Of a stretch of 64,000 bases of DNA, positions 7,446-22,764 are shown piece after piece. Below the pieces are notes generated by a model. That model made no database searches, was not told where the DNA came from, and saw only the letters and a program-made list of their open reading frames with translations. The translations under genes and the position numbers were made by a program. Every line of letters starts with the position of its first letter. The first letter of the stretch is position 1. This DNA is from Methanosphaera sp. BMS. GTDB lineage: Archaea; Methanobacteriota; Methanobacteria; Methanobacteriales; Methanobacteriaceae. The stretch spans positions 1,984,001 through 2,048,000 of the forward strand of contig NZ_CP014213.1 of NCBI RefSeq assembly GCF_003268005.1, written 5' to 3'.

Positions 7446-9116
7446 ATGAAAGGTAGCAAACTATTAATAGATAAACTAAAGGAAAATGGAGTGGATACAA
7501 TCTTCGGTTACCCTGGAGGTGTACTGCTTCCATTCTACGACGCACTATGCGAATCGGATATAAATCATATACTTGTAAGACATGAACAGGCTGCAGCCCA
7601 TGCAGCGGACGGATATGCAAGGGCATCCGGTAGAGTCGGTGTGTGTTTGGCTACCTCAGGACCTGGAGCAACAAACGTGACGACAGGAGTTGCAACGGCG
7701 AACATGGACTCATCACCGGTCGTAGTACTTACCGGACAGGTTCCAACCGCCGCTATAGGTACGGACATGTTCCAGGAAGTAGATACGATAGGAATAACCA
7801 TGCCCATATCAAAGCATAACTTCCAACCTAGAAGTCCAAAAAGAATAGCCGAAGACATTGACAAGGCATTCTATATAGCTTCAACAGGCAGACCGGGACC
7901 CGTAGTGATAGACCTTCCCCGCAACGTACTGGAAGAGGAAATAGATATAAGCTCATTAACCATAAACACTGACATTCCAGGATACAAGCCGACAAAAAAA
8001 GGCAACCTCAAACAGATCAAAAAGGCGATAAACGTAATCAACCAATCAAAAAAACCCATTATAGTAGCAGGTGGAGGAGCTATACTAAGCGACTGTGGTA
8101 AACAGCTCTACGAATTTGCAAAGCTAGCCAACATTCCGATAGCAACGACACTCATGGGAAAGGGGATAATATCAGAATATGATGAACTCTCACTTGGAAT
8201 GATTGGAATGCATGGAATACAAACCACCAATAGGGCATTGACGGAGTGCGACTGCCTTATAGCAGTGGGATGCAGATTCTCAGACAGAAGCGTAAGTAAC
8301 GCCACCAAATTTGCACCTAATGCCACGATTATACAGATAGACGTTGACCCCGCAGAGATAGGAAAAACAATACACGTCGACATTCCAATAGTTGGAGATG
8401 CAAAAATAACCCTGGAAGAGTTCATCAACCAAATGGATAAAACGGACAATGCGAACTGGACAAAAGAACTTATCGCAAAAAAACGGGACAACGAAGAAAA
8501 CATATCCTACACGCAAATACCTTTAAAGCCACAGGAGTGCATAAAGGAAATCATGGAAGCTGTAACTGCCGATACTATAGTGACGACCGACGTTGGCCAA
8601 AACCAGATGTGGATGGCACACTACTACAAGACCAGAAATCCGCGGACATTCATCTCAAGCGGAGGACTCGGAACAATGGGATTTGGACTGCCGGCTGCTA
8701 TGGGAGCACAATTTGCAAAACCTGACGCAAATGTACTTGCAATATGTGGAGATGGTGGATTTGCAATGGTATCACAGGAGCTTGCAACGATAAAGGAAAA
8801 CGACCTACCTGTAGTTGTATGCATACTGAACAACCGTTACCTTGGAATGGTGGCACAACTACAGAAGCTCTTCAACGACCACGTATATGCTACGAAACTG
8901 ACTGCAACCCCGGACTTCGTAAAACTGGCCGACGCTTATGGAATTGAAGGCCAGAGAGTCGAGAAAGTGGGTCAGCTGAGAGAAAGCATAGAAAACGCGT
9001 TCAAATCAAGGGAAGCTACCCTGATAGATGTGGCAATAGACCGGGAAGAACTATTGCCGATAGTACCTCCGGGTCAAAGTCTGGACAAGATGAAAATGAC
9101 ATTTGATGAGGAATAG
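7446..9116 (+). CDS. ilvB: Acetolactate synthase large subunit, copy 1
   Basis: Catalytic subunit of acetohydroxyacid synthase, which joins pyruvate with pyruvate or 2-ketobutyrate, the first common step to valine, leucine and isoleucine. 556 aa, full length. The catalytic glutamate is E47 ([19 protein letters not shown]) and the ThDP-binding stretch runs from GDGG at 435-438 to NN at 462-463. The residue after GMVAQ is L472, where nearly all family members have tryptophan (QWQ); copy 2 has the normal Trp. That Trp governs preference for 2-ketobutyrate and is the classic herbicide-binding site. AAGGTG precedes the ATG by 7 nt. The small subunit follows after 2 bp. Confidence 0.96.
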
Positions 9117-9118
9117 AA

Positions 9119-9613
9119 ATGACCAACAAGCACACGATAAGCATACTTGTAGAAAACAAGACGGGAGTACTGCAGAGAATAGCAGGACTCTTTACAAGAC
9201 GAGACTTCAACATAGACAACATCAGCGTCGGTAAAACCTCGGTTGAAAATATGTCCCGTATAACGATTACGACATACGGCGACGACAAGACGCTCGAACA
9301 GATTATAAAGCAACTAAACAAGCTAATAGAAGTAATCAAGGTACGGGAAATGAAACCGGACCAGACAATAAGAAGACAGCTGGCACTGGTAAAAATACAC
9401 GCACCGACAGAAGAGGACAAATCAGAAATAATACAATACACAAACATCTTCAGAGGAAAGATTGCCGACGTTACGCCAAAAACCATCACGGTAGAAATAA
9501 CGGGAAATCCCGACAAGATAAACGCACTCATAGACCTTTTAAGACCATACGGAATAAAGGAGATGACAAAAACAGGGACTACAGCAATTACCAGAGGACA
9601 AAAAACATTATAA
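9119..9613 (+). CDS. ilvN: Acetolactate synthase small regulatory subunit, copy 1
   Basis: Regulatory subunit, 164 aa, that activates IlvB and binds valine as feedback inhibitor. The N-terminal ACT domain is evident ([20 protein letters not shown] at residues 5-24, then FNIDNISVG), and the C-terminal half is of the IlvN-C type ([20 protein letters not shown]). It begins 2 bp after ilvB, with a GAGG ribosome site inside the end of that gene, so the two are co-translated. It is about 93% identical to the second ilvN, far more than the two ilvB copies are to each other. Confidence 0.95.
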
Positions 9614-9735: not shown

Positions 9736-9806
9736 TAATCACTTATTAATTGGAAGAAAAAAACAATAACCATAATTTTTATCAATCATTTTATAGGAGA
9801 AAAAAA

Positions 9807-11483
9807 ATGAACGGAAGTGAAGCACTACTGAAAAAACTAAAGGAAAATGGTACAGATGTAGTCTTCGGTTATCCCGGAGGGGTACTGCTACCATTATATG
9901 ATTCAATATATGACTGTGACATAAAACACATACTAGTTAGACATGAACAGGCCGCAGCCCATGCAGCCGACGGATATGCAAGGGCATCAGGAAAGACGGG
10001 TGTATGCATCGCAACATCAGGACCGGGAGCAACAAACCTTGTAACCGGTATTGCAACCGCACAAATGGATTCAAGCCCGGTAATAGCATTGACCGGTCAG
10101 GTCGGAACACCTATCATCGGAACGGATGCATTCCAAGAGGTAGATACCATAGGTATAACCATGCCTATTACAAAAACGAATTTCCAGCCAAGAGACTCAA
10201 GTGATGTGCCTAAAATAATAGATGCCGCATATCACATAGCATCAACCGGCAGACAGGGAGTTGTAGTTGTAGATTTGCCAAAAGACGTGCTTGAAAATGA
10301 AGTAACGGATGAGGATATGGATGCAAAACTGGAAATACAGGGATACAAGCCAAATACTAATGGAAATCCAAGACAGATAACGAAGGCTATCCAAACAATA
10401 TTGAATTGTAAAAAACCCATCATCCTTGCAGGTGGAGGTGTAATACTTGCAGATGCATCCAAAGAATTGGTTGAATTTGCAACCAAGGCAAACATTCCAG
10501 TAGCCACGAGCCTTATGGGTAAAGGATCAATACCTGAAGACCATGAACTGTCACTTGGACTATTGGGTATGCATGGACTGGAATCAACAAACAATGCGGT
10601 AACCGACTGTGACTGCCTGATAGCAATAGGCTGCAGATTCTCCGATCGTACAACGGGTAAGGTATCTGAATTTGCATCGGATGCCGTGAAAATCCAGATA
10701 GATATAGACCCGGCGGAAATCGGCAAGAACGTCGACATAGACATACCTATAGTTGGAAACGCCAAGATAATACTTGAAAAATTCATAGGCGAAATCGATG
10801 GAGTCAACCACGGTGACTGGACCAAGCAAATCGTGAGCAAAAGATGGGCATACAAGCCTAAATATAACTTCGGATGCGTACCATTCAAGCCACAGGAATG
10901 CATCAAGGAAATAATGGAAGCCATAACCCCTGAAACAATTGTTACGACCGACGTGGGTCAAAACCAGATGTGGATGGCACACTACTTCAAAACAAAAAAT
11001 CCGCGAACATTCATCTCAAGCGGAGGACTCGGAACAATGGGTTATGCCCTGCCGGCGGCTATAGGAGCACAAGTGGCAAAGCCCGACGAACATGTACTTG
11101 CGGTTGCAGGTGACGGAGGATTCCAGATGGTATCACAGGAACTTGCAACGATAAAGGAATATGATTTACCTATAGTAACATGCATCCTAAACAACAGGTA
11201 TCTTGGAATGGTATATCAATGGCAGGTGTTATACTACAACAACAGGATATCCCAGACAGAACTGGCACCTACGCCGGACTTTGTACAGTTGGCAAAGTCC
11301 TATGGAATAGATGCCGTATCGGTTGAAGAAATAGGTAAGCTTAAAGAGAATATAATGGAAGCATTCGATCAAGGAGAAGCCCGTGTAATAGAAGTTAAAA
11401 TCGATTCGTCAGAACTGCTGCCAATGGTTCCGCCGGGTGAGAAGATTACAAAAATTGTTGGAGAATATAAGCAAGAGGAATGA
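9807..11483 (+). CDS. ilvB: Acetolactate synthase large subunit, copy 2
   Basis: Second acetohydroxyacid synthase catalytic subunit, 558 aa. The start at 9807 follows an AGGAG ribosome site and matches the start of copy 1; an upstream in-frame codon at 9750 would only add 19 non-conserved residues. It has the catalytic Glu in [19 protein letters not shown] and the ThDP motif ([20 protein letters not shown], then NN). Unlike copy 1 it keeps the conserved tryptophan ([13 protein letters not shown]). The two copies look roughly two-thirds identical by eye. Its stop overlaps an ATG by 4 bp, giving tight coupling to the second ilvN. Confidence 0.96.
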
Positions 11484-11488
11484 TTAAT

Positions 11489-11989
11489 ATGACAAAACAG
11501 AACAAACATACAATCAGCATACTCGTTGAAAACAAGACGGGAGTACTGCAGAGAATAGCAGGACTCTTTACAAGACGAGACTTCAACATAGACAACATTA
11601 CAGTGGGAAAAACGGCTGAGGAACACATTTCCCGAATGACAATCACGACATACGGCGATGGCAAGACGCTCGAACAGATTATAAAGCAACTAAACAAGCT
11701 AATAGAAGTAATCAAGGTACGTGAAATGAAACCGGACCAGACAATAAGAAGACAGCTGGCACTGGTTAAAATACACGCACCGACAGAACAGGACAAATCA
11801 GAAATCATACAATACACAAACATCTTCAGAGGAAAAGTAGCTGACGTCACCCCAAAAACCATCACGGTAGAAATAACGGGAAAACCGGATAAGATAAACG
11901 CACTCATAGACCTTTTAAGACCATACGGAATAAAGGAGATGACAAAAACAGGAATAACTGCAATTACCAGAGGACAAAAAACATTATAA
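11489..11989 (+). CDS. ilvN: Acetolactate synthase small regulatory subunit, copy 2
   Basis: Second regulatory subunit, 166 aa from the ATG at 11489, which corresponds to the start of copy 1; an ATG at 11480 overlapping the ilvB stop (ATGA) is possible and would add three residues. ACT domain at the N-terminus and IlvN-C domain as in copy 1. Only about 12 substitutions separate the two proteins over the shared 163 residues, most in one short patch (TAEEHISRM against TSVENMSRI). A pyrimidine run (tccccttttttt at 11990-12001) after the stop is a likely archaeal terminator. Confidence 0.95.
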
Positions 11990-12090
11990 TCCCCTTTTTT
12001 TACAATTTTTTTAAATATTATATTTGAATATGTTAAAAAAGTTATTTCCACCTACAAATGATAGAAAGACTATAACAAAAGAGGTTGATT

Positions 12091-12873
12091 ATGGACAAGT
12101 ATATTATTACTTATTTAGCAATGATAGCAATTTTTTTGATTATGACATTAATATTAAGAGTTTTATATCAAAAACTTAAGAATACAGACATACACATTTT
12201 AAAACCAGAGGAATATTTACCTAAACAAGAGATTCAAACACTCAAACAAGTATTTTATTTAGTCATGATGACATTGTTTGTTATAAATATCTTTTATCAA
12301 GTGGTTGCTCAGGGAAATGATGTGCTGTATTTTGCAGTATTGGATATTATATTGTCCCTAATTACACTAGCAAATATAAGAATACATGATTTAAAATCCA
12401 TTTTAATCGCATTAGCAATCATTCCATATTCCAGTATGGATTATATGATATTTGATGATTCATTTATTATATTATCAGTAATATTATTCACGATTCATCT
12501 GATAGCGTTATTCTATTTTACCATGTATTTCTATAAAAAGTTTAAGCAATTTACAAAATCTCAGGGTTTAAGTTACACCATTCTGCTATTATTTGGAATA
12601 GTATTCTTTAGTTTCATATTCACTTCAATAGTCGAAAGTGTAAACCTGTTGGATTCATTAGTAATGGTATCCAATGCATTTACAAGTAATGGTTATGCAA
12701 TTCTAGGAAGTACAATACCAGGTAAGCTAAATTCAATATTCCTTGTTTGGTCAGGTTATATTCTATCAAGTGTGGGTACTGCCACATTAAGTGTTGGATT
12801 AATGATAAAATATTATAATAATCGATTTGATAAAATGGAAAAAATGATCCAAGAATTAAAAGAAGATAAATAA
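12091..12873 (+). CDS. Channel-like membrane protein, paralogue 1
   Basis: 260 aa, first of three paralogues. About seven membrane segments are visible (near residues 5-24, 54-72, 80-96, 103-120, 125-147, 162-181 and 215-240). Between the last two is a re-entrant-loop-like stretch: LDSLVMVSNAFTSNGYAILG (188-206) then GKL. It lines up with the pore helix, filter and start of the last helix of potassium channels (a TTVGYGD-type filter), with T198-S199-N200-G201-Y202-A203 in place of TTVGYG. A charged tail (MEKMIQELKEDK) follows. No voltage-sensor arginine series is seen. Start at ATG 12091 after GAGGTTGAT. Function unproven; ion channel or a channel-derived sensor are the best guesses. Confidence 0.7.
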   Translation: MDKYIITYLAMIAIFLIMTLILRVLYQKLKNTDIHILKPEEYLPKQEIQTLKQVFYLVMMTLFVINIFYQVVAQGNDVLYFAVLDIILSLITLANIRIHDLKSILIALAIIPYSSMDYMIFDDSFIILSVILFTIHLIALFYFTMYFYKKFKQFTKSQGLSYTILLLFGIVFFSFIFTSIVESVNLLDSLVMVSNAFTSNGYAILGSTIPGKLNSIFLVWSGYILSSVGTATLSVGLMIKYYNNRFDKMEKMIQELKEDK

Positions 12874-13287
12874 ATTCAGCAAATTATAATCCAGACGAGT
12901 TTAATCATAATATTAACCTCTTTATTCTTAATTTTTAAGATGAAAACATTTCTTCATTGGAAAACAGAACACCCCAGAGTGTCAAGAATAAATGCTTTAT
13001 ATTACTACTATGACATGGGGGATAAAAGATAAGAAAAAACCGGGATAACCTCCATAAGAAGAGGACAAAAATACACCATAACTAACCTCCACCTTTTTAT
13101 CATTTCATTTCAAGTTAATGGTTAATATAATCAGGATTAATATAGATGACTGATTTGTTTTGTCTTAAAGGTATTGGGCAGAATCTTATTCTATTATACT
13201 CAGAATAGAAATGCATTGTTGAAACTGCAAAAATGTTAATATCCTTAAATATAAATAGTTAAATAAGAAATAAATTGGTGAAGATTT
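12874..13287 (+). pseudogene. Intergenic stretch holding the remnant of a third ilvN
   Basis: The frame that starts at 12940 reads, after one in-frame TAA at 13030-13032, into a tail very like the IlvN C-terminus. Before the stop it reads RINAL (IlvN: KINAL); after it EKTGITSIRRGQK (Ilv[14 protein letters not shown]). The spacing between the two blocks differs by one residue from the intact genes. No ACT domain or start remains. This looks like the 3' third of a third small-subunit gene, left between the first two channel-like genes. The rest of the 414-bp gap shows nothing recognisable. Confidence 0.65.
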
Positions 13288-14064
13288 GTGGAATTATTGA
13301 CTGAAACTATATTTCAATTTGCTATAGTAATTTCTATTTTTTTAGTTTTAACCATTATTGGCGAATATGCATATAAATTAAAAAATAAATATGGGAAATC
13401 TATAGATGTGAATGAATTATTGCCCGAAGATGAAATTCATAGCTTAAGACAGGTTTTTTATTTAATTTTAATGGCACTGTGTGTTGTAGATATCTTCTAT
13501 ACTTTTATTGGTGATGGAATCGAATTTTTGTATTCCTTTCCAATATTTGATATTGCACTTTCATTATATTTTGCAATAAAAATAGACAAAAGTTCTATGA
13601 AAAATAAGATCATCTGGTTGTTGCTGGTGCCTTATGGAACATTGTGTTTCCTGCTATTCCATACCCATTTGGTAATTTACATGGGTTTGATTCATGTATT
13701 GGTATTCATATACTTTGCCAAACTTAGCTTCGATAAATTTATGGAATATACCAATTCAAATGGTTTGGGAATAACCATAATATTATTATTTGTTATAATA
13801 TTTGCCAGTTTCTTTATAACACAACATGCTGAAGGTGTAAATGCCCTGGATTCTCTTGTAATGATTTCCAATGAATTTACAGGTAATGGCTTTGCCGTTT
13901 TTGGAAATTCAATTGCCGGTAAACTTAATAGTTTACTTCTAGTTTGGGGTGGATATGTCATTTCAGGAGCGAGTGCTGCAACATTAACTGCGGCAATTTT
14001 AATCAAACACTTCAAAAAAAGATTTGCTGAATTAGAAAAATTAATTGAAGGAGAGGATGAATAA
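13288..14064 (+). CDS. Channel-like membrane protein, paralogue 2
   Basis: 258 aa, GTG start preceded by GGTGA. Same layout as the preceding paralogue: an N-terminal membrane helix, the conserved LLPEDEIHSLRQVFYLI block near residues 44-60, further helices, and a pore-like segment LDSLVMISNEFTGNGFAVFG (188-207) followed by GKLNS and a Gly-rich last helix. The filter position reads T198-G199-N200-G201-F202-A203. It ends in an acidic tail. The stop codon TAA shares its last base with the ATG of the third paralogue (TAATG), so the last two are one operon and may form a hetero-oligomer. Function unproven. Confidence 0.7.
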   Translation: MELLTETIFQFAIVISIFLVLTIIGEYAYKLKNKYGKSIDVNELLPEDEIHSLRQVFYLILMALCVVDIFYTFIGDGIEFLYSFPIFDIALSLYFAIKIDKSSMKNKIIWLLLVPYGTLCFLLFHTHLVIYMGLIHVLVFIYFAKLSFDKFMEYTNSNGLGITIILLFVIIFASFFITQHAEGVNALDSLVMISNEFTGNGFAVFGNSIAGKLNSLLLVWGGYVISGASAATLTAAILIKHFKKRFAELEKLIEGEDE

Positions 14065-14867
14065 TGGAAAGTCTACCTGCAATATATCTTATCATTCAAT
14101 TATTGTGTGTAATTGGAGTTTTTGCCTTCCTTGCATATGCCAGTAAATATATTGTTAAAAAGGTTAAATCCAGTTCCTGGTTTAAAAATTCAAAATTTTT
14201 AAATCCTATGGAATATTTTCCTCAAGAGAAAATATTATCTTTAAAACAGCTTTATTACCTGATAATGATACTTGTCTTTATAGTGATTGGTTTATATATA
14301 ATATTTGAGTGGACGGATGGTTTGTTTGCCATTTCTATTTTGGACATTATTATTTCAATATATCTATTTAGTAATATGGGCTGGAATTCTTTAAAAGACA
14401 AGATTATATTCTTTTTATTAATTCCTATTGGTTCTATGATAAGAATATTATTTGGACATAACATACTCATCTACTTTAACATTGTCCACGTTCTTGGATA
14501 CGTATACCTCATCCAAGTTTACTATCGTAAATTTGTGAAGTATACTGAAAATAACGGTTTAGGTATAACTATACTATTATTATATACAATAATATTGGTA
14601 AGTTTCATATTTACAATAATAGTTGAGCAAGTTTCTCCGTTGGATTCGATTGTTATGGTTTCAAATGCCTTTACAAGCAATAGTTTCGACGCTGCCGGAA
14701 AATCAGTGATTGGTAAACTTGATTCATTGGTACTGGCATGGGGTGGTTTTATTTTATCCGGAGTTGGTACTGCCACATTAGCCGCCTCTATTGTAAACAG
14801 ATACGTTGATCGTCAATTTGATGATATGAAAGATTTTATTAAAAATAATAAAAAAGACAACAAATAA
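14064..14867 (+). CDS. Channel-like membrane protein, paralogue 3
   Basis: 267 aa, translationally coupled to paralogue 2. It keeps the family blocks: NPMEYFPQEKILSLKQLYYL (47-66), LDIIIS in a middle helix, a basic YYRKFVKYT before the pore domain, and LDSIVMVSNAFTSNSFDAAG (193-212) followed by GKLDS and WGGFILSGVGTATL. The filter-like position is the most divergent of the three, T204-S205-N206-S207-F208-D209, with the central Gly replaced by Ser and an Asp where potassium channels have the last Gly. A subunit that modifies conduction, or a non-conducting sensor, is possible. C-terminus is Lys/Asp-rich. Confidence 0.7.
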   Translation: MESLPAIYLIIQLLCVIGVFAFLAYASKYIVKKVKSSSWFKNSKFLNPMEYFPQEKILSLKQLYYLIMILVFIVIGLYIIFEWTDGLFAISILDIIISIYLFSNMGWNSLKDKIIFFLLIPIGSMIRILFGHNILIYFNIVHVLGYVYLIQVYYRKFVKYTENNGLGITILLLYTIILVSFIFTIIVEQVSPLDSIVMVSNAFTSNSFDAAGKSVIGKLDSLVLAWGGFILSGVGTATLAASIVNRYVDRQFDDMKDFIKNNKKDNK

Positions 14868-16552: not shown

Positions 16553-18874
16553 TTATGATTCGACTATCAAAGTTTTAACATTCTCCAACCTACCATATTT
16601 ACTTGATATCAATACGGCCGTAATGTTATATGTGCCGGCTTTCATATTAGCAGGCAATGTATACTCAACACTTACCTGATTGTTTATTACCTTAGCATAG
16701 ATAACCTTACCGTTAGAGTCCTTGACTGTTTTACCGTTGATTTTAAATACCACCTTACCACTATTAACCGGTACTGGTGCATGAATAGTGGCAGTTAACG
16801 TAACTGTACTTCCAACGCTTGTCCGAACACTAGAACTAGCAATACTTGGATTATTTGAAAAAATGTTAATGCTTACCTTTTGACTGGTTATTTTATCACA
16901 ATCTGATGAACCAGAATAAATTGCTTGAATAGTTGCATTAGGAATATTCCATGATTCCGTTATTGTGTAATTTTCAATACTTGCAGTTCCGTTTACTACA
17001 TTAGCATAGATTACCTTACCCTTTGAATCTTTTAGTGTTTTACCATTAACTTTAAATGATACTTTACCTTTGTTAACATTGCTTGCCACTTCATCATTAT
17101 AATATAATGTGGATGATACCGTTTGATTTAATCCAAGACCAAAATCAGTTATATCTATTTCAAACGTGTAGCCAATTATTTCTACTGGTATATTATTCTG
17201 TACTGTATTATTTTTAGGGGCTAAAACCGCCCTACTTCCAGTATGTTTAGTAGTAATTAACGTATTGTTTTCAATCTTATTGTTTATACCATTCAGATTA
17301 GAGGAGTTAGTTACTTCAACTGCATAATCATGACCTACGACATTTATCGTATTATTCAATATATTAGCATTATTTGAGGATTTTATAAGTATTCCACGAC
17401 CATTTATGGATGTTATTGTATTATTCATCATCACAATAACTTCTGAAGTAAATAATGTATATAATCCAGTATTTATTGCTTCCAGGTAATCTGCTGTTCC
17501 TTCTGATCTGTTATGTGTACCATTGTTTATTATATGGTTATCTGCAATAGTAATATTTGATCCTATTGCACCTATACCCATAGGTGTACGACCCGTGATA
17601 TTGATAGTGTTACCACTAAGATTTGTATCACTAGTACCATAAATCTCTATACCATATATCTGTCCGGCAGAACCTACTATCGTATTATTCACAAAGGAAT
17701 TGTTATAAGGATGATTACCTGATGAAGAATATGCACCACCACCATAACTAAAGTCCAACATCTCCAGTCCATATGCCACTCCTGCATTTCCCCATGGAGC
17801 AGAACCATAACTGGCTGTTACATTAACATGGTTATTGTTTACCATATTGTTTTGGAAACGCACCATTTCCAAATTAACACCAGCTGAATAGGTCTGTGAA
17901 GATATGCTTATATTATTATGGGATATGGTATTATTACTGCTTCTTACCACTATACCATAAGCATAACCTGTGGCATTATGCATGATAATAGTGTTGTTTG
18001 TCAAAGTAGTATTTGACTTCATAAGATAGATTCCAAACAAGGAGTAATGTGTTCCACTACTATGTCCACTTGAAATTATTTCAATAGTATTGTTTCTTAA
18101 AATACAGTCATTGGCATTAATATGAATACCATAAGCGTCGGGTGTTTTAGGACCGGTTTCCCAGTCAATAATTGTTTCCACAAATCTGCCCCTGATAAAT
18201 GAATTTTCAATTGTTGTACGACCAACAATTCCAATAAGATAACCATAAGCAACATTGTCCTTATCCATATCTATGGAAACATTACGTAAAACGCAATGTT
18301 GAACATTATCGGAGATTGTGAAATAATCAGTACCCGTGTATTCGTTATTATAGGTAACATTAAAGTTTTCCAATGTCAACGTTTTAAAATTACTGGATAA
18401 AAGCACTTCCATATTAGTTAATGCTAAATTTCTATCAGAAGTAATTGTTAGTGATCTGTTTAGAAACTTTTCACTATTTTCATCTAATCCAAAATAATTT
18501 ACATTATCAGGGAAATATTGCAGATTCAATACCAAACTATTATTTGAATTAATTATTCCTTTTCCAATAAACATTTGTTTACCCATAACAGTAAAATAAT
18601 TTTTATAGTTATTTTGGGTAATGTTCACATATTCAACAGGAACACTCTCCTCATCAGACTTAATATTTTTTGGAGAATCTTCAAATGTTGTAACTGTATT
18701 TTCCGAAGCTATATCATCACTACTTGAATCAATGGCCTCATCCACATATTCTTCTTGTGCTGACTGTTCTTCGATATTTACCTGGGTCTGTGAATCGTCA
18801 ACTGCATAACCGACAGACACTAAAAAAACAAAAACAATCATAAACAAGAAAAATTGCTTAATATATATATTCAT
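16553..18874 (-). CDS. Adhesin-like surface protein, 773 aa
   Basis: Secreted adhesin-like protein of the kind abundant in gut Methanobacteriales. Start set at the ATG at 18874, which follows GTGAT by about 5 nt and leads straight into a signal peptide (MNIYIKQFFLFMIVFVFLVS, ending near VGYA); an upstream ATG would add MCDY. A Ser/Glu/Asp-rich linker follows, then from about residue 115 to 560 many short Asn-rich turns (NNTI, NNTINI, LRNNT) typical of right-handed parallel beta-helix repeats. The C-terminal 200 residues hold two Ig-like domains marked by VSFKVNGKTLKDSKGKVIYA and VVFKINGKTVKDSNGKVIYA. Numerous N-X-S/T sequons suggest glycosylation. Paralogue of the next gene. Confidence 0.9.
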   Translation of the reverse strand: MNIYIKQFFLFMIVFVFLVSVGYAVDDSQTQVNIEEQSAQEEYVDEAIDSSSDDIASENTVTTFEDSPKNIKSDEESVPVEYVNITQNNYKNYFTVMGKQMFIGKGIINSNNSLVLNLQYFPDNVNYFGLDENSEKFLNRSLTITSDRNLALTNMEVLLSSNFKTLTLENFNVTYNNEYTGTDYFTISDNVQHCVLRNVSIDMDKDNVAYGYLIGIVGRTTIENSFIRGRFVETIIDWETGPKTPDAYGIHINANDCILRNNTIEIISSGHSSGTHYSLFGIYLMKSNTTLTNNTIIMHNATGYAYGIVVRSSNNTISHNNISISSQTYSAGVNLEMVRFQNNMVNNNHVNVTASYGSAPWGNAGVAYGLEMLDFSYGGGAYSSSGNHPYNNSFVNNTIVGSAGQIYGIEIYGTSDTNLSGNTINITGRTPMGIGAIGSNITIADNHIINNGTHNRSEGTADYLEAINTGLYTLFTSEVIVMMNNTITSINGRGILIKSSNNANILNNTINVVGHDYAVEVTNSSNLNGINNKIENNTLITTKHTGSRAVLAPKNNTVQNNIPVEIIGYTFEIDITDFGLGLNQTVSSTLYYNDEVASNVNKGKVSFKVNGKTLKDSKGKVIYANVVNGTASIENYTITESWNIPNATIQAIYSGSSDCDKITSQKVSINIFSNNPSIASSSVRTSVGSTVTLTATIHAPVPVNSGKVVFKINGKTVKDSNGKVIYAKVINNQVSVEYTLPANMKAGTYNITAVLISSKYGRLENVKTLIVES

Positions 18875-19004
18875 ATAATCACACATCCAATTATTCTAGA
18901 AAGATATTTCTTATCTTGTTAAAAAAATATACTCATAAAAAATCATCATAAAAAAATAAATATGAAGAATAATAACATTAAAGGACAAATTTTATAAAGA
19001 AAGA

Positions 19005-19025
19005 AGGTGAGGATTTACCTCATAA
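19005..19025 (-). terminator. Hairpin after the second adhesin-like gene
   Basis: Stem tgagg (19008-19012) with cctca (19018-19022) 40 bp past the stop; on the minus strand a moderately T-rich stretch follows. Weaker than the other terminators noted. Confidence 0.4.
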
Positions 19026-19063
19026 TTCTTCAATATAAAGGATTATCCGTATTATTTATTATT

Positions 19064-22000
19064 CTAGCCTGTAACTGTCAATGTTTTAACATCCTCTAAT
19101 CTACCATAGTCGCTACTGATAAGTACGGCGGTTAAAGTGTATTCTAGTGCTTTCATATCACTTGGTAATGTATATTCTACATTAACAGTTCCATCAGTAA
19201 CTTTTGTATAAATGACTTTGCCGTTAGCGTCTTTGACTGTTTTACCATTTATCTTAAATACTACTTTACCGTTGTTAACTGGTGTAGCAGCTGTGACAGT
19301 AGCAGTTAATGTAACTGTAGAACCTACAGTTGCTTGAACATCCTCAGTTGTGATTGTTGGTTCTTGACTTGTAACTGTGATTGTTTCTTTATCACTATTT
19401 AATTTTCCAATATCACCAGAACCTGAGTATACTGCTTGTATTGTAGTACCTTCTTTAGCCCAATCCTGTGGAACTTCATAACCATCAATAGTAGCAACAC
19501 CACCAGTTACTTTAGCATAAATTACCTTACCACTAGCATCTTTAAGAGTCTTACCGTTTACTTTAAAGGATACTTTACCTTTGTTGATATCGTTTGCTAC
19601 TTCATCACCATAGTAAATACTAGCACTAATTGTAGTGGTACTGCCAACAGTGAATTCCGTTGTATCTACCTTTAGTACTGGTTCAACAACTTCCACATAT
19701 GGGTTCTGTTCAACAACATTGTTGTTACCTGTGGTAATGACAGTAGCATCACCTTCTGCTAATTCAGTTGTAAGGGTATTGTAATGCACAATGTTATTAT
19801 CACCAATAAGATTTATAGTGTAATCTCCGTTCATAATGTTTATCGTGTTATTTTCAATTATAGTATCATTAGTTGTTAAGTTCATTCCCGGAACATATCG
19901 GACATTTACTTCATTGTTTATGAAGTTTAATTCTGTTATATTTCCGGCAAAAATCGGACTATATTGATAACTACTCATTGATGAATCTTTTTCCATGCTG
20001 TCAATTGAAAAGGCATTATTAAGGAAAGTTACATTCTTAGAATGATAGAAGAATACTGAGTATACATGCCAATCATTTGCATCCATATGGAATACATTAC
20101 CTCCACCCAAATCAATATTAACTTCATCAGTATGCATATAGGGTTGTTGGCTGATTGTGAATTTACACTCCTCTACATTGATGTTTTCTCCTACAATATA
20201 TATAGCTGAAGCTTTAGCAGTTTCACCTTCAACAATAGGTACAAAGTATTCACTATTACATATTCCAGCTAAGTCTCCGGGACATGTGAAGGTATAAGTA
20301 CAGTTTTTAAGTGTGATATTGTTTCCAACTAATCCTAAAGCTGGCATTCCCTTAGTATTGTCTGTGAATTTTTGTGCAATATTTAAATTTTCATATGTGA
20401 GTGTTTTCCAGTTTCCTGATACTTTAAGTCCTTTGAAAGTAAATGATGGATTACTAATCACGAAAAGATTTATATTTTCTTGATTATTCATTGTAAATAG
20501 GACTTCAGCATAATTACCTGGAGAAGCGTTCACATATATTACAAGATCAGTTATTTCATAGTTTAGTTCATTTAACTTAGTTGTGTATGCATTAGTTAGT
20601 CCACGGAAAACCATGCTAATAACATTTGATTGTGATAATACCATTACTGCTGTTCCATTAGAATATATTGTTAAATCATTTTCACCATTCAAACTGTATT
20701 GATCTACTATTTCAACGGTAGAATCTGATTTCATATTTTTTGAACTTCCGGATAGCGATGCACCTCTTGTTGGAACACAGTTTGGACAATTACCATTACA
20801 TGATTGATAATATCCATAATATGGATTCTGTAACAATGAGAAGGTATTTCCTCCACAATTATATGTTGTGTATGCTCCATTGATTTTAAGAGTACCACCG
20901 ATATTATCTTTAAAGCAACTATTTGGTTTTGATACTGTTATCATTTGACCTGTCTGGGTATTTGAGTGGTAACGTACATTGTTTTTAACTGTGATTGAAT
21001 TTATAAATGTGTTGCTTGTTACATTACTATGTCCTGCAAAATTACTTGTTCCTGTGAAATAATTATTTTCAACTACACTATAGTTTCCACATAGGAATGT
21101 TGCACCGTTATATAAATTATTGTAATAGTACTTGTTTCCTTCATATACTGTTTCGAAGTCATCATCTTCTAATTCTATTATTTCCACATCATAACTTCCT
21201 TGCCAATTAGTAGTTATTCCCGTACCACCATAATAAATATCATTATGTTCAATAGTATTGTCTGGGCCAGCTATTGCTATAGCAAAACAGGTATTAACAG
21301 GAGTAGTTGGTCCAGTTAAAGTATTGTAACTTATAGTATTGTGACGATTTGTTACTGTTGGGGCTGGGTTGGTATTGTAGAAGTATGTGTTTAAATATAT
21401 TAGATTTCCAACACTACCACTACCAGTAATTACATTATGATCAATAAGACAATCTTCAGCATTGGTTAATGCTATTACACTTATACCACCATTATTATTT
21501 ATATTAAAGTAATTATTAGTAACTGTTATATGTGTAGAACCTTCACGTAGGGCAAATATACCTGTTCCTTTACCACAAGGTTGATTTGCTGTAACTGTTA
21601 TATGATCAAAGGTTATATAATCTGCATCCAATACAAATATTTGACTGTTATGGAATTGCATATAACTTATAGTAGAACCTGATGCTCCGCTAGTGAAGTT
21701 TATGGAAGTCCAATGTTCTATAATATCTGGTTCATAACCGTTACTTGTATTCAAGTCAATAGTATTATTATAATCACTAGTTAATGTTATAGGAACATTA
21801 ATAATATATGAATGTTCATTTCTTGTTATATCTGTATTAATTTTAATTGTTTTACCAGAATATTCACTTTTAATTTGATGAACTCCGGGAGATACTACGG
21901 TAAATAACGTATCAAAGTTATCACCAGTTCCATCATTAGTTACTATTATTGGGTCATTTTCATCGCTTTTAACGCTTTTTGTTTCTTTTATTATTTTTTG

Positions 22001-22186
22001 ATTATTATCTTCACTTACGCTTGCAACTGCCTGTGTGTCAACTGTTGATGTAGTGTCAACTTCAACAGCATCTGATACATCTGAGCTTGCACTAGCAGTA
22101 TCATCAATATCTGCTGCTACTGCCACACTCATACCGGCAATCAACAGTGCTAAGAAGATAATCATATATCTACTATTTTTTATCAT
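19064..22186 (-). CDS. Adhesin-like surface protein, 1040 aa
   Basis: Large secreted surface protein. The ATG at 22186 follows a strong GGGAGGA site by 7 nt; the signal peptide is MIKNSRYMIIFLALLIAGMS to about AVAA. A Thr/Ser/Asp-rich spacer is followed by two beta-helix blocks (about residues 85-430 and 500-820) rich in NN and N-X-S/T turns, interrupted by a cysteine-bearing segment (CNGNCPNC, near residue 465) that could bind metal or form disulphides. The C-terminus carries two Ig-like domains closely similar to those of the neighbouring paralogue (KVNGKTLKDASGKVIYAKV and FKINGKTVKDANGKVIYTKV). No membrane anchor or sortase-type signal is seen, so the Ig-like domains may bind the pseudomurein wall. 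Confidence 0.92.
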   Translation of the reverse strand: MIKNSRYMIIFLALLIAGMSVAVAADIDDTASASSDVSDAVEVDTTSTVDTQAVASVSEDNNQKIIKETKSVKSDENDPIIVTNDGTGDNFDTLFTVVSPGVHQIKSEYSGKTIKINTDITRNEHSYIINVPITLTSDYNNTIDLNTSNGYEPDIIEHWTSINFTSGASGSTISYMQFHNSQIFVLDADYITFDHITVTANQPCGKGTGIFALREGSTHITVTNNYFNINNNGGISVIALTNAEDCLIDHNVITGSGSVGNLIYLNTYFYNTNPAPTVTNRHNTISYNTLTGPTTPVNTCFAIAIAGPDNTIEHNDIYYGGTGITTNWQGSYDVEIIELEDDDFETVYEGNKYYYNNLYNGATFLCGNYSVVENNYFTGTSNFAGHSNVTSNTFINSITVKNNVRYHSNTQTGQMITVSKPNSCFKDNIGGTLKINGAYTTYNCGGNTFSLLQNPYYGYYQSCNGNCPNCVPTRGASLSGSSKNMKSDSTVEIVDQYSLNGENDLTIYSNGTAVMVLSQSNVISMVFRGLTNAYTTKLNELNYEITDLVIYVNASPGNYAEVLFTMNNQENINLFVISNPSFTFKGLKVSGNWKTLTYENLNIAQKFTDNTKGMPALGLVGNNITLKNCTYTFTCPGDLAGICNSEYFVPIVEGETAKASAIYIVGENINVEECKFTISQQPYMHTDEVNIDLGGGNVFHMDANDWHVYSVFFYHSKNVTFLNNAFSIDSMEKDSSMSSYQYSPIFAGNITELNFINNEVNVRYVPGMNLTTNDTIIENNTINIMNGDYTINLIGDNNIVHYNTLTTELAEGDATVITTGNNNVVEQNPYVEVVEPVLKVDTTEFTVGSTTTISASIYYGDEVANDINKGKVSFKVNGKTLKDASGKVIYAKVTGGVATIDGYEVPQDWAKEGTTIQAVYSGSGDIGKLNSDKETITVTSQEPTITTEDVQATVGSTVTLTATVTAATPVNNGKVVFKINGKTVKDANGKVIYTKVTDGTVNVEYTLPSDMKALEYTLTAVLISSDYGRLEDVKTLTVTG

Positions 22187-22764
22187 GAGTTTTCCTCCCA
22201 TTCATTATTTATGAGCATTTGCCCATTGTTATTATCGGTAGAAATAATAAATTTTTCATTTTTAAAAATATTTCTATTTAAGATTAGAATTTACATAATT
22301 CTACGATAACATATAACTTAATAATAATTATATAACTGTATTAATAATAAAATAATTAAGAGATTTACCACTTAAGAAATAAATATCATCTTAAAAATTA
22401 TCAAGTTATATTTTATTATTTTTTTTCACTATATAATATACTTTATTATAATTATTTTAAAATAAAGAATACTTACTTTATTTATCCAATTAACGTGATT
22501 ATCCGTTTATATCACAAATATATTTGTTTAACATTTCATGAAAATCATTATACTATTTTAGTTAAAATTTCTAACCAATCCCATATAAGTTATATTCTAT
22601 TAAACACGTTTAGAATGTATACATTATCTGAATTGATTCATTATTTTTTTCAAATTAAAGAATTGAACTTCGATGCTGATATTTGATTTGGCTTCCAACA
22701 ATATTAATTACTATTTCCTTTAAATATTTAATTAGGAAATAAGATTTTTAAGGATTTGTTATTT
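22187..22764. other. 578-bp intergenic region between divergent genes
   Basis: Extremely AT-rich. Contains the promoters of the 1040-aa surface protein (minus) and of the marker 12 gene (plus). A plus-strand frame at 22495-22686 has no ribosome site or family features and is not called. Confidence 0.6.

Follow-up and report, generated by a model that had tools for sequence, protein, structure and literature searches.

The K+ channel filter TxGYG is among the most conserved sequences of membrane biology, and a locus of the methanogen Methanosphaera sp. BMS, where three neighbouring genes encode K+ channel-like proteins with other residues in its place, raises the question of what these proteins are and whether they act together. 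The window analysed here comprises 64,000 nucleotides of the 2.87 Mb genome, and in it genes A, B and C (Table 1) are flanked by tandemly duplicated ilvB-ilvN and by ilvC. A sequence-only reading of the window had described three paralogues with altered filters, two of them joined by TAATG, and both observations match the sequence exactly; it had further proposed a triple cluster encoding a hetero-oligomeric channel of new selectivity or a channel turned sensor. For gene A, the ATG start preceded by AGAGG was preferred to an in-frame TTG upstream at 12085, and gene B starts with GTG, preceded by GGTGA. A promoter scan returned a number of sites no higher than in shuffled sequences. The ilv genes around A-C were weighed as a hint at function and set aside, since only the near-identical genome G112 (98.8% DNA identity) shares this neighbourhood and the other loci read differ in theirs. 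The two ilvB-ilvN copies (7446-9613 and 9750-11989) are 91% identical over 489 bases at the small-subunit end and 72% identical in the large subunits, a pattern suggestive of gene conversion at ilvN or of recent selection there. Downstream of genes A-C, two large ORFs lie on the minus strand (16553-22201), the first of them encoding 777 aa with a signal-like start and NNTI-type repeats, comparable to methanogen adhesin-like proteins.

Table 1. Positions in the window of the three channel-like genes, the B-C junction and the pore elements.
Feature	Position	Strand	Remarks
Gene A (P0001), channel-like protein	12091..12873	+	260 aa, filter TSNGYAI, deep family branch
Gene B (P0002), channel-like protein	13288..14064	+	258 aa, pair member 1
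Gene C (P0003), channel-like protein	14064..14867	+	267 aa, pair member 2
TAATG, B stop / C start overlap	14062..14066	+	
Gene A pore helix LDSLVMVSNAF	12649..12681	+	AlphaFold helix 186-198, sequence
Gene A filter TSNGYAI	12682..12702	+	Sequence
Gene B pore helix LDSLVMISNEF	13846..13878	+	Sequence
Gene B filter TGNGFAV	13879..13899	+	Ser to Gly at second filter position; TGNG clade of 23
Gene C pore helix LDSIVMVSNAF	14640..14672	+	AlphaFold helix 192-204
Gene C filter TSNSFDA	14673..14693	+	Central Gly to Ser, acidic residue next; TSNS clade of 23

Single window proteins had no significant match in Pfam, NCBIfam or the PDB, a PDB search with the family profile returned no relative, and the family stayed below the gathering score of Pfam Ion_trans_2 (one of 62 members matched, at E 0.57). 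The link to K+ channels was therefore made through canonical relatives, TTTGYGD channels of sister genera among them. When the family profile A1, built from 62 members, was run on the 1344 ORFs of the collected loci, the only non-family matches at E<=1e-3 were canonical K+ channels with filters TTTGYGD, TTTGFGD or TTVGYGD, the best at E 3.5e-14. BLASTP with one such TTTGYGD channel (L072) reached window protein C at E 4e-8 and protein A at 6e-6, and hhalign aligned A1 with A2, a set of 18 canonical channels, over 194 columns at 98.5% probability and E 2e-15. A2 in turn matched KvAP at E 8e-27 over S1-S6 and also KcsA, and the canonical channels L072, L076 and L048 fall into Pfam Ion_trans_2 at E 1e-13 to 1e-15. 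Homology to established 6TM P-loop tetrameric cation channels thus extends over S1-S6, and at the level of sequence we regard descent of the family from K+ channels as settled. The S3 Pro, the first filter Thr and a Glu at the top of S5, whose position we take to be that of the FAEA Glu in Shaker-type channels, are invariant across the family and the canonical channels, of which the window's genome itself encodes three.

AlphaFold modelled protein A from family rows only (pLDDT 84.8) as an N-terminal helix followed by six TM helices, with the pore helix given in Table 1. Protein C, modelled from an alignment of 132 rows with canonical channels among them, reached pLDDT 91.6 and pTM 0.86, with S0 at residues 4-36, S1 at 54-81, S2 at 87-104, S3 at 110-130, S4 at 136-162, S5 at 167-188 and S6 with the tail at 215-265. 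The topology of S0 plus S1-S6 is common to the three paralogues, and both models place a pore helix and a re-entrant loop between S5 and S6. Among the PDB folds retrieved by Foldseek for the protein C model, the best 50 were all tetrameric cation channels; superposition on KcsA gave 2.3 Å over 95 columns at probability 1.00, with Foldseek E values of 0.17-0.5 that are not significant alone. The kinship to K+ channels claimed earlier is thus borne out by hhalign, BLASTP and the modelled pore helix and loop, and the homology detected leads to canonical K+ channels rather than to an unrelated transporter or enzyme family. The loop charges fit a cytosolic position of the S0-S1 loop, the S2-S3 loop and the C-tail. 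The S4 core holds on average 0.9 Lys plus Arg and no gating charges, which sets the family apart from voltage-gated channels.

All 153 full-length family members carry the filter T[SG]N[GS][YF] (107 TSNG, 23 TGNG and 23 TSNS) and none the K+ signature T-x-G-[YF]-G-D. Compared with TTVGYGD, the second Thr has become Ser or Gly, the second Gly is nearly always absent and there is one residue fewer, while the replacement of the filter Val by Asn, first noticed in the three window proteins, is invariant in the family. The first filter Thr and the Gly of the S6 GK/GR lie 13 residues apart in family members and 14 apart in all 20 canonical relatives compared; in 36 members an earlier GK (as in AAGKSVIGK) had been scored at 8, and their true distance is also 13. 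Hence one residue was deleted close to the second filter Gly or to the Asp, and the gap-free alignment of the pore block to K+ channels had been mistaken. The lack of the central Gly in protein C was read correctly: a Ser stands there in all derived C-type proteins, which also have a constant Asp/Glu after the filter aromatic residue. Conservation within the family peaks in the pore helix, filter and S6 (mean entropy 0.84-0.85 bits versus 1.1-2.3 in the other segments), and the family's genes are under purifying selection, with dN/dS of about 0.13-0.21 when near-identical genomes are left aside. Taken together, the conservation in 153 of 153 members, its concentration in the pore and the purifying selection argue that the motif did not arise by chance, and judged by its sequence the filter is a maintained one and not that of a decayed pore.

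The family was matched in 90 of 139 Methanobacteriaceae genomes and, by profile, in 88 of 152 genomes of the phylum; outside the phylum, the search covered close relatives. Among the genomes searched, full-scoring members were confined to four Methanobacteriaceae genera (g1, g6, g9 and g10), and the weak matches in g7, g8, g14 and g16 are canonical channels, or presumably so. The viral contigs and plasmids searched held no family relatives, and as far as these collections show, the family is not phage or plasmid cargo; nor did the channel proteins fit any known defence model of PADLOC. Phylogenetically, the TSNS genes group in a clade of their own with support 0.999, and the TGNG genes in a second one with 0.939. 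Gene A sits on a deep separate branch with its G112 counterpart as sole companion. A further 71 genes, all with TSNG filters, are unpaired.

Adjacent B-C pairs were found 40 times, always in the same order, with C starting 2 bases past the last sense codon of B (the TAATG type) in 26 and overlapping B in 14. Both clades are nearly confined to such pairs. All 22 complete derived pairs, which are not independent observations since the joint Gly/Ser change probably arose once and was passed on to all 22, have TGNG first and TSNS second; the other 18 pairs are TSNG plus TSNG, mixed ancestral/derived pairs number 0 of 40, and the two unpaired derived genes both lie at contig ends. As gene order has it, the conserved unit is the B-C pair and not the trio: an equivalent of A is usually absent beside B-C, and at one locus (L160) a similar trio has a different first gene. 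The triple cluster thus has to be given up as a unit, and the hetero-oligomer proposed for it stands in part, with indirect support for B and C from the fixed order and the joint filter change and with none for A, whose branch is deep and separate. The strict pairing of TGNG with TSNS suggests a B-C hetero-tetramer with non-canonical cation selectivity, and two subunits that share a pore would be predicted to change their filters together. In a B2C2 pore, the Asp/Glu of the C-type proteins would contribute a pair of acidic groups to the outer mouth. Heteromers cannot be a requirement throughout the family, since many of its members are encoded by single genes.

The ancestral TSNG-TSNG pairs of rumen Methanobrevibacter follow RyR-domain and/or kinase-Hsp70 genes on the same strand at 13 of 13 loci with a readable upstream flank, operons that are related by descent and not independent and that all hold ancestral-filter pairs, unlike the pair in the window. 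A representative operon runs FHA-HTH, Ser/Thr kinase-Hsp70, calcineurin-like phosphatase, RyR, RyR, B, C, MATE, and at L179 a TIR-RyR fusion lies within the same gene run. No derived TGNG-TSNS pair with a readable flank, the window's included, was found in a RyR/kinase-Hsp70 operon; TIR-RyR, kinase, FHA and Hsp70 genes are present in the window's genome at 187-201 and 222-237 kb. Some members have genes for other cation transporters, TMEM175 or TrkH, as neighbours. TMEM175 is found at three loci; a short TMEM175-type gene at L090/L183 and full-size TMEM175 genes at L123 and L125 precede family members. In seven genomes of genus g9 (L137, L142, L143, L144, L146, L151 and L152) TrkH lies directly upstream of a single-gene member, and a gene for a heavy-metal P-type ATPase is convergent behind it.

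Several observations were made alongside. The genome of the window has a canonical 6TM K+ channel gene next to the Hsp70/RyR cluster (L172:5200-5985, at 185 kb), where Methanobrevibacter carries the B-C pair. TIR-RyR fusions are encoded at L172:15843-19130 (about 195.8-199.1 kb of the same genome) and at L179:9440-12649; in these gut methanogens they lie among kinase, FHA, Hsp70, AAA/ClpB and phosphatase genes, which together look like a TIR/RyR signalling system of archaea. Archaeal Ser/Thr kinases of about 1170 aa fused to an Hsp70 domain are encoded at L181:10657-14148 and, as identified by BLAST, at L183:9218-12742.

We propose that A, B and C are P-loop cation channel subunits derived from a 6TM K+ channel of Methanobacteriaceae, and that B and C mix in one pore that is neither restricted to K+ nor voltage-gated, a reading to which we assign slightly better than even odds (about 0.52). 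Each subunit would begin with S0 and an S1-S4 domain devoid of gating charges, continue through S5, pore helix, filter and S6, and end in a long helical tail in the cytosol; four of them would surround one pore, in which B and C, as products of overlapping genes, are most likely mixed. With the second Gly and one residue lost, Val changed to Asn and, in C, the central Gly changed to Ser with Asp/Glu to follow, the filter should no longer offer four regularly stacked K+ sites; it would be wider or lined by side chains, and would pass Na+ or mixed monovalent cations and not K+ alone. Opening would not be by voltage, and the kinase/RyR genes beside ancestral pairs make a cytosolic signal more likely. 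Precedents exist in TPC2, where a filter Asn sets Na+ selectivity (PMC6424560), and in the Na+-selective (class I) HKTs, which are marked by a Ser for a filter Gly (PMC7918770). Both are analogies, since TPC and HKT architectures differ from that of the family.

Retained K+ selectivity, with the shortened filter building K+ sites of another geometry, seems rather unlikely to us. It could appeal to the first filter Thr, the GY of A and of some B-type proteins and the pore architecture, all of which are kept, and to TMEM175, which is K+-selective in the absence of a P-loop filter (PMC7176437); nevertheless, the loss of the second Gly and the Asp with the deletion of one residue, the invariant Asn, the Ser in all derived C-type proteins and the three canonical K+ channels already in the genome argue against it. 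The proteins might instead conduct no ions and act as partners or sensors, joining a canonical channel or RyR proteins and transmitting a signal through a change of conformation, which we think unlikely. The 13 ancestral operons and the presence of canonical 6TM channels in the same genomes would suit such a role, whereas the high conservation of the filter, with 0 of 153 decayed variants, is that of a working pore, and most members are encoded alone and not next to a canonical channel.

It is likewise doubtful that A, B and C form separate homotetramers in what would be merely a tandem duplication. The near confinement of the B and C clades to pairs, their fixed order, the overlapping stop and start and the joint filter change weigh against this, although the 71 unpaired TSNG genes must act alone or with distant partners and gene A branches away from B and C. 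That the proteins are not channels, and belong to an unrelated membrane family with a chance pore-like motif, is scarcely credible: the blank Pfam, NCBIfam and PDB sequence searches would agree with it, but it is contradicted by the full-length HMM, profile-profile and BLASTP homology to canonical K+ channels and by the fold.

A mixed, non-K+-only B-C pore can be extended into a scheme that we put forward as a long shot. The heteromeric archaeal channel with its new filter would in its ancestral form be the membrane effector of TIR-RyR second-messenger and kinase-Hsp70 phospho-signalling, a TIR-made ADP-ribose-type signal would act through RyR proteins to open the B-C pore, and the derived pair of the window would have left the operon and changed both filters at once. 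Through their link to RyR, TIR-RyR, kinase-Hsp70 and TMEM175 genes, the ancestral pairs provide a candidate signalling-to-channel pathway of archaea that can be put to the test, one that concerns abundant rumen and gut methanogens. The family is a large monophyletic set of K+ channel descendants in which the filter was replaced once and then kept, and in whose paired subclade adjacent subunits changed Gly and Ser at complementary positions; it can serve as a natural experiment on the change of pore selectivity and the origin of hetero-tetramers. No description of it was found in the open-licence literature, in which these gut methanogen membrane proteins, their K+-selecting sequence swapped for another that is strictly kept, would thus be new.

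Among known systems, the Trk/Ktr/HKT proteins (SKT) have in common with the family that the central Gly is the only one left in the filter, and one pore loop of the Na+-selective HKTs has Ser there, as C does. Membership in SKT was rejected, as these have four M1-P-M2 repeats in one chain and the family one per 260-aa chain. TPC2 shares the filter Asn and, if B and C mix, the arrangement of two filter kinds around one pore; the eukaryotic TPCs are set apart by their two 6TM repeats per chain, against one pore repeat in the family, and membership was rejected on this ground. The pore helix, loop and inner helix of KvAP, KcsA and NaK are folded like those of the family, which differs in filter sequence and length, lacks voltage sensor charges and has no direct sequence match to them. 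Closest are the canonical 6TM K+ channels of Methanobacteriaceae and sister families (L072, L076 and L048), whose filters are TTTGYGD or TTVGYGD in place of the one-residue-shorter filter of the family, whose pore helix has WF/WY where the family has VM, and which are without the extra S0 helix. These channels have in common with the family the homology over S1-S6, the GlyLys/Arg at the start of S6 and the long helical tail, and in the nearest of them, L072, most S4 charges are absent, as in the family itself.
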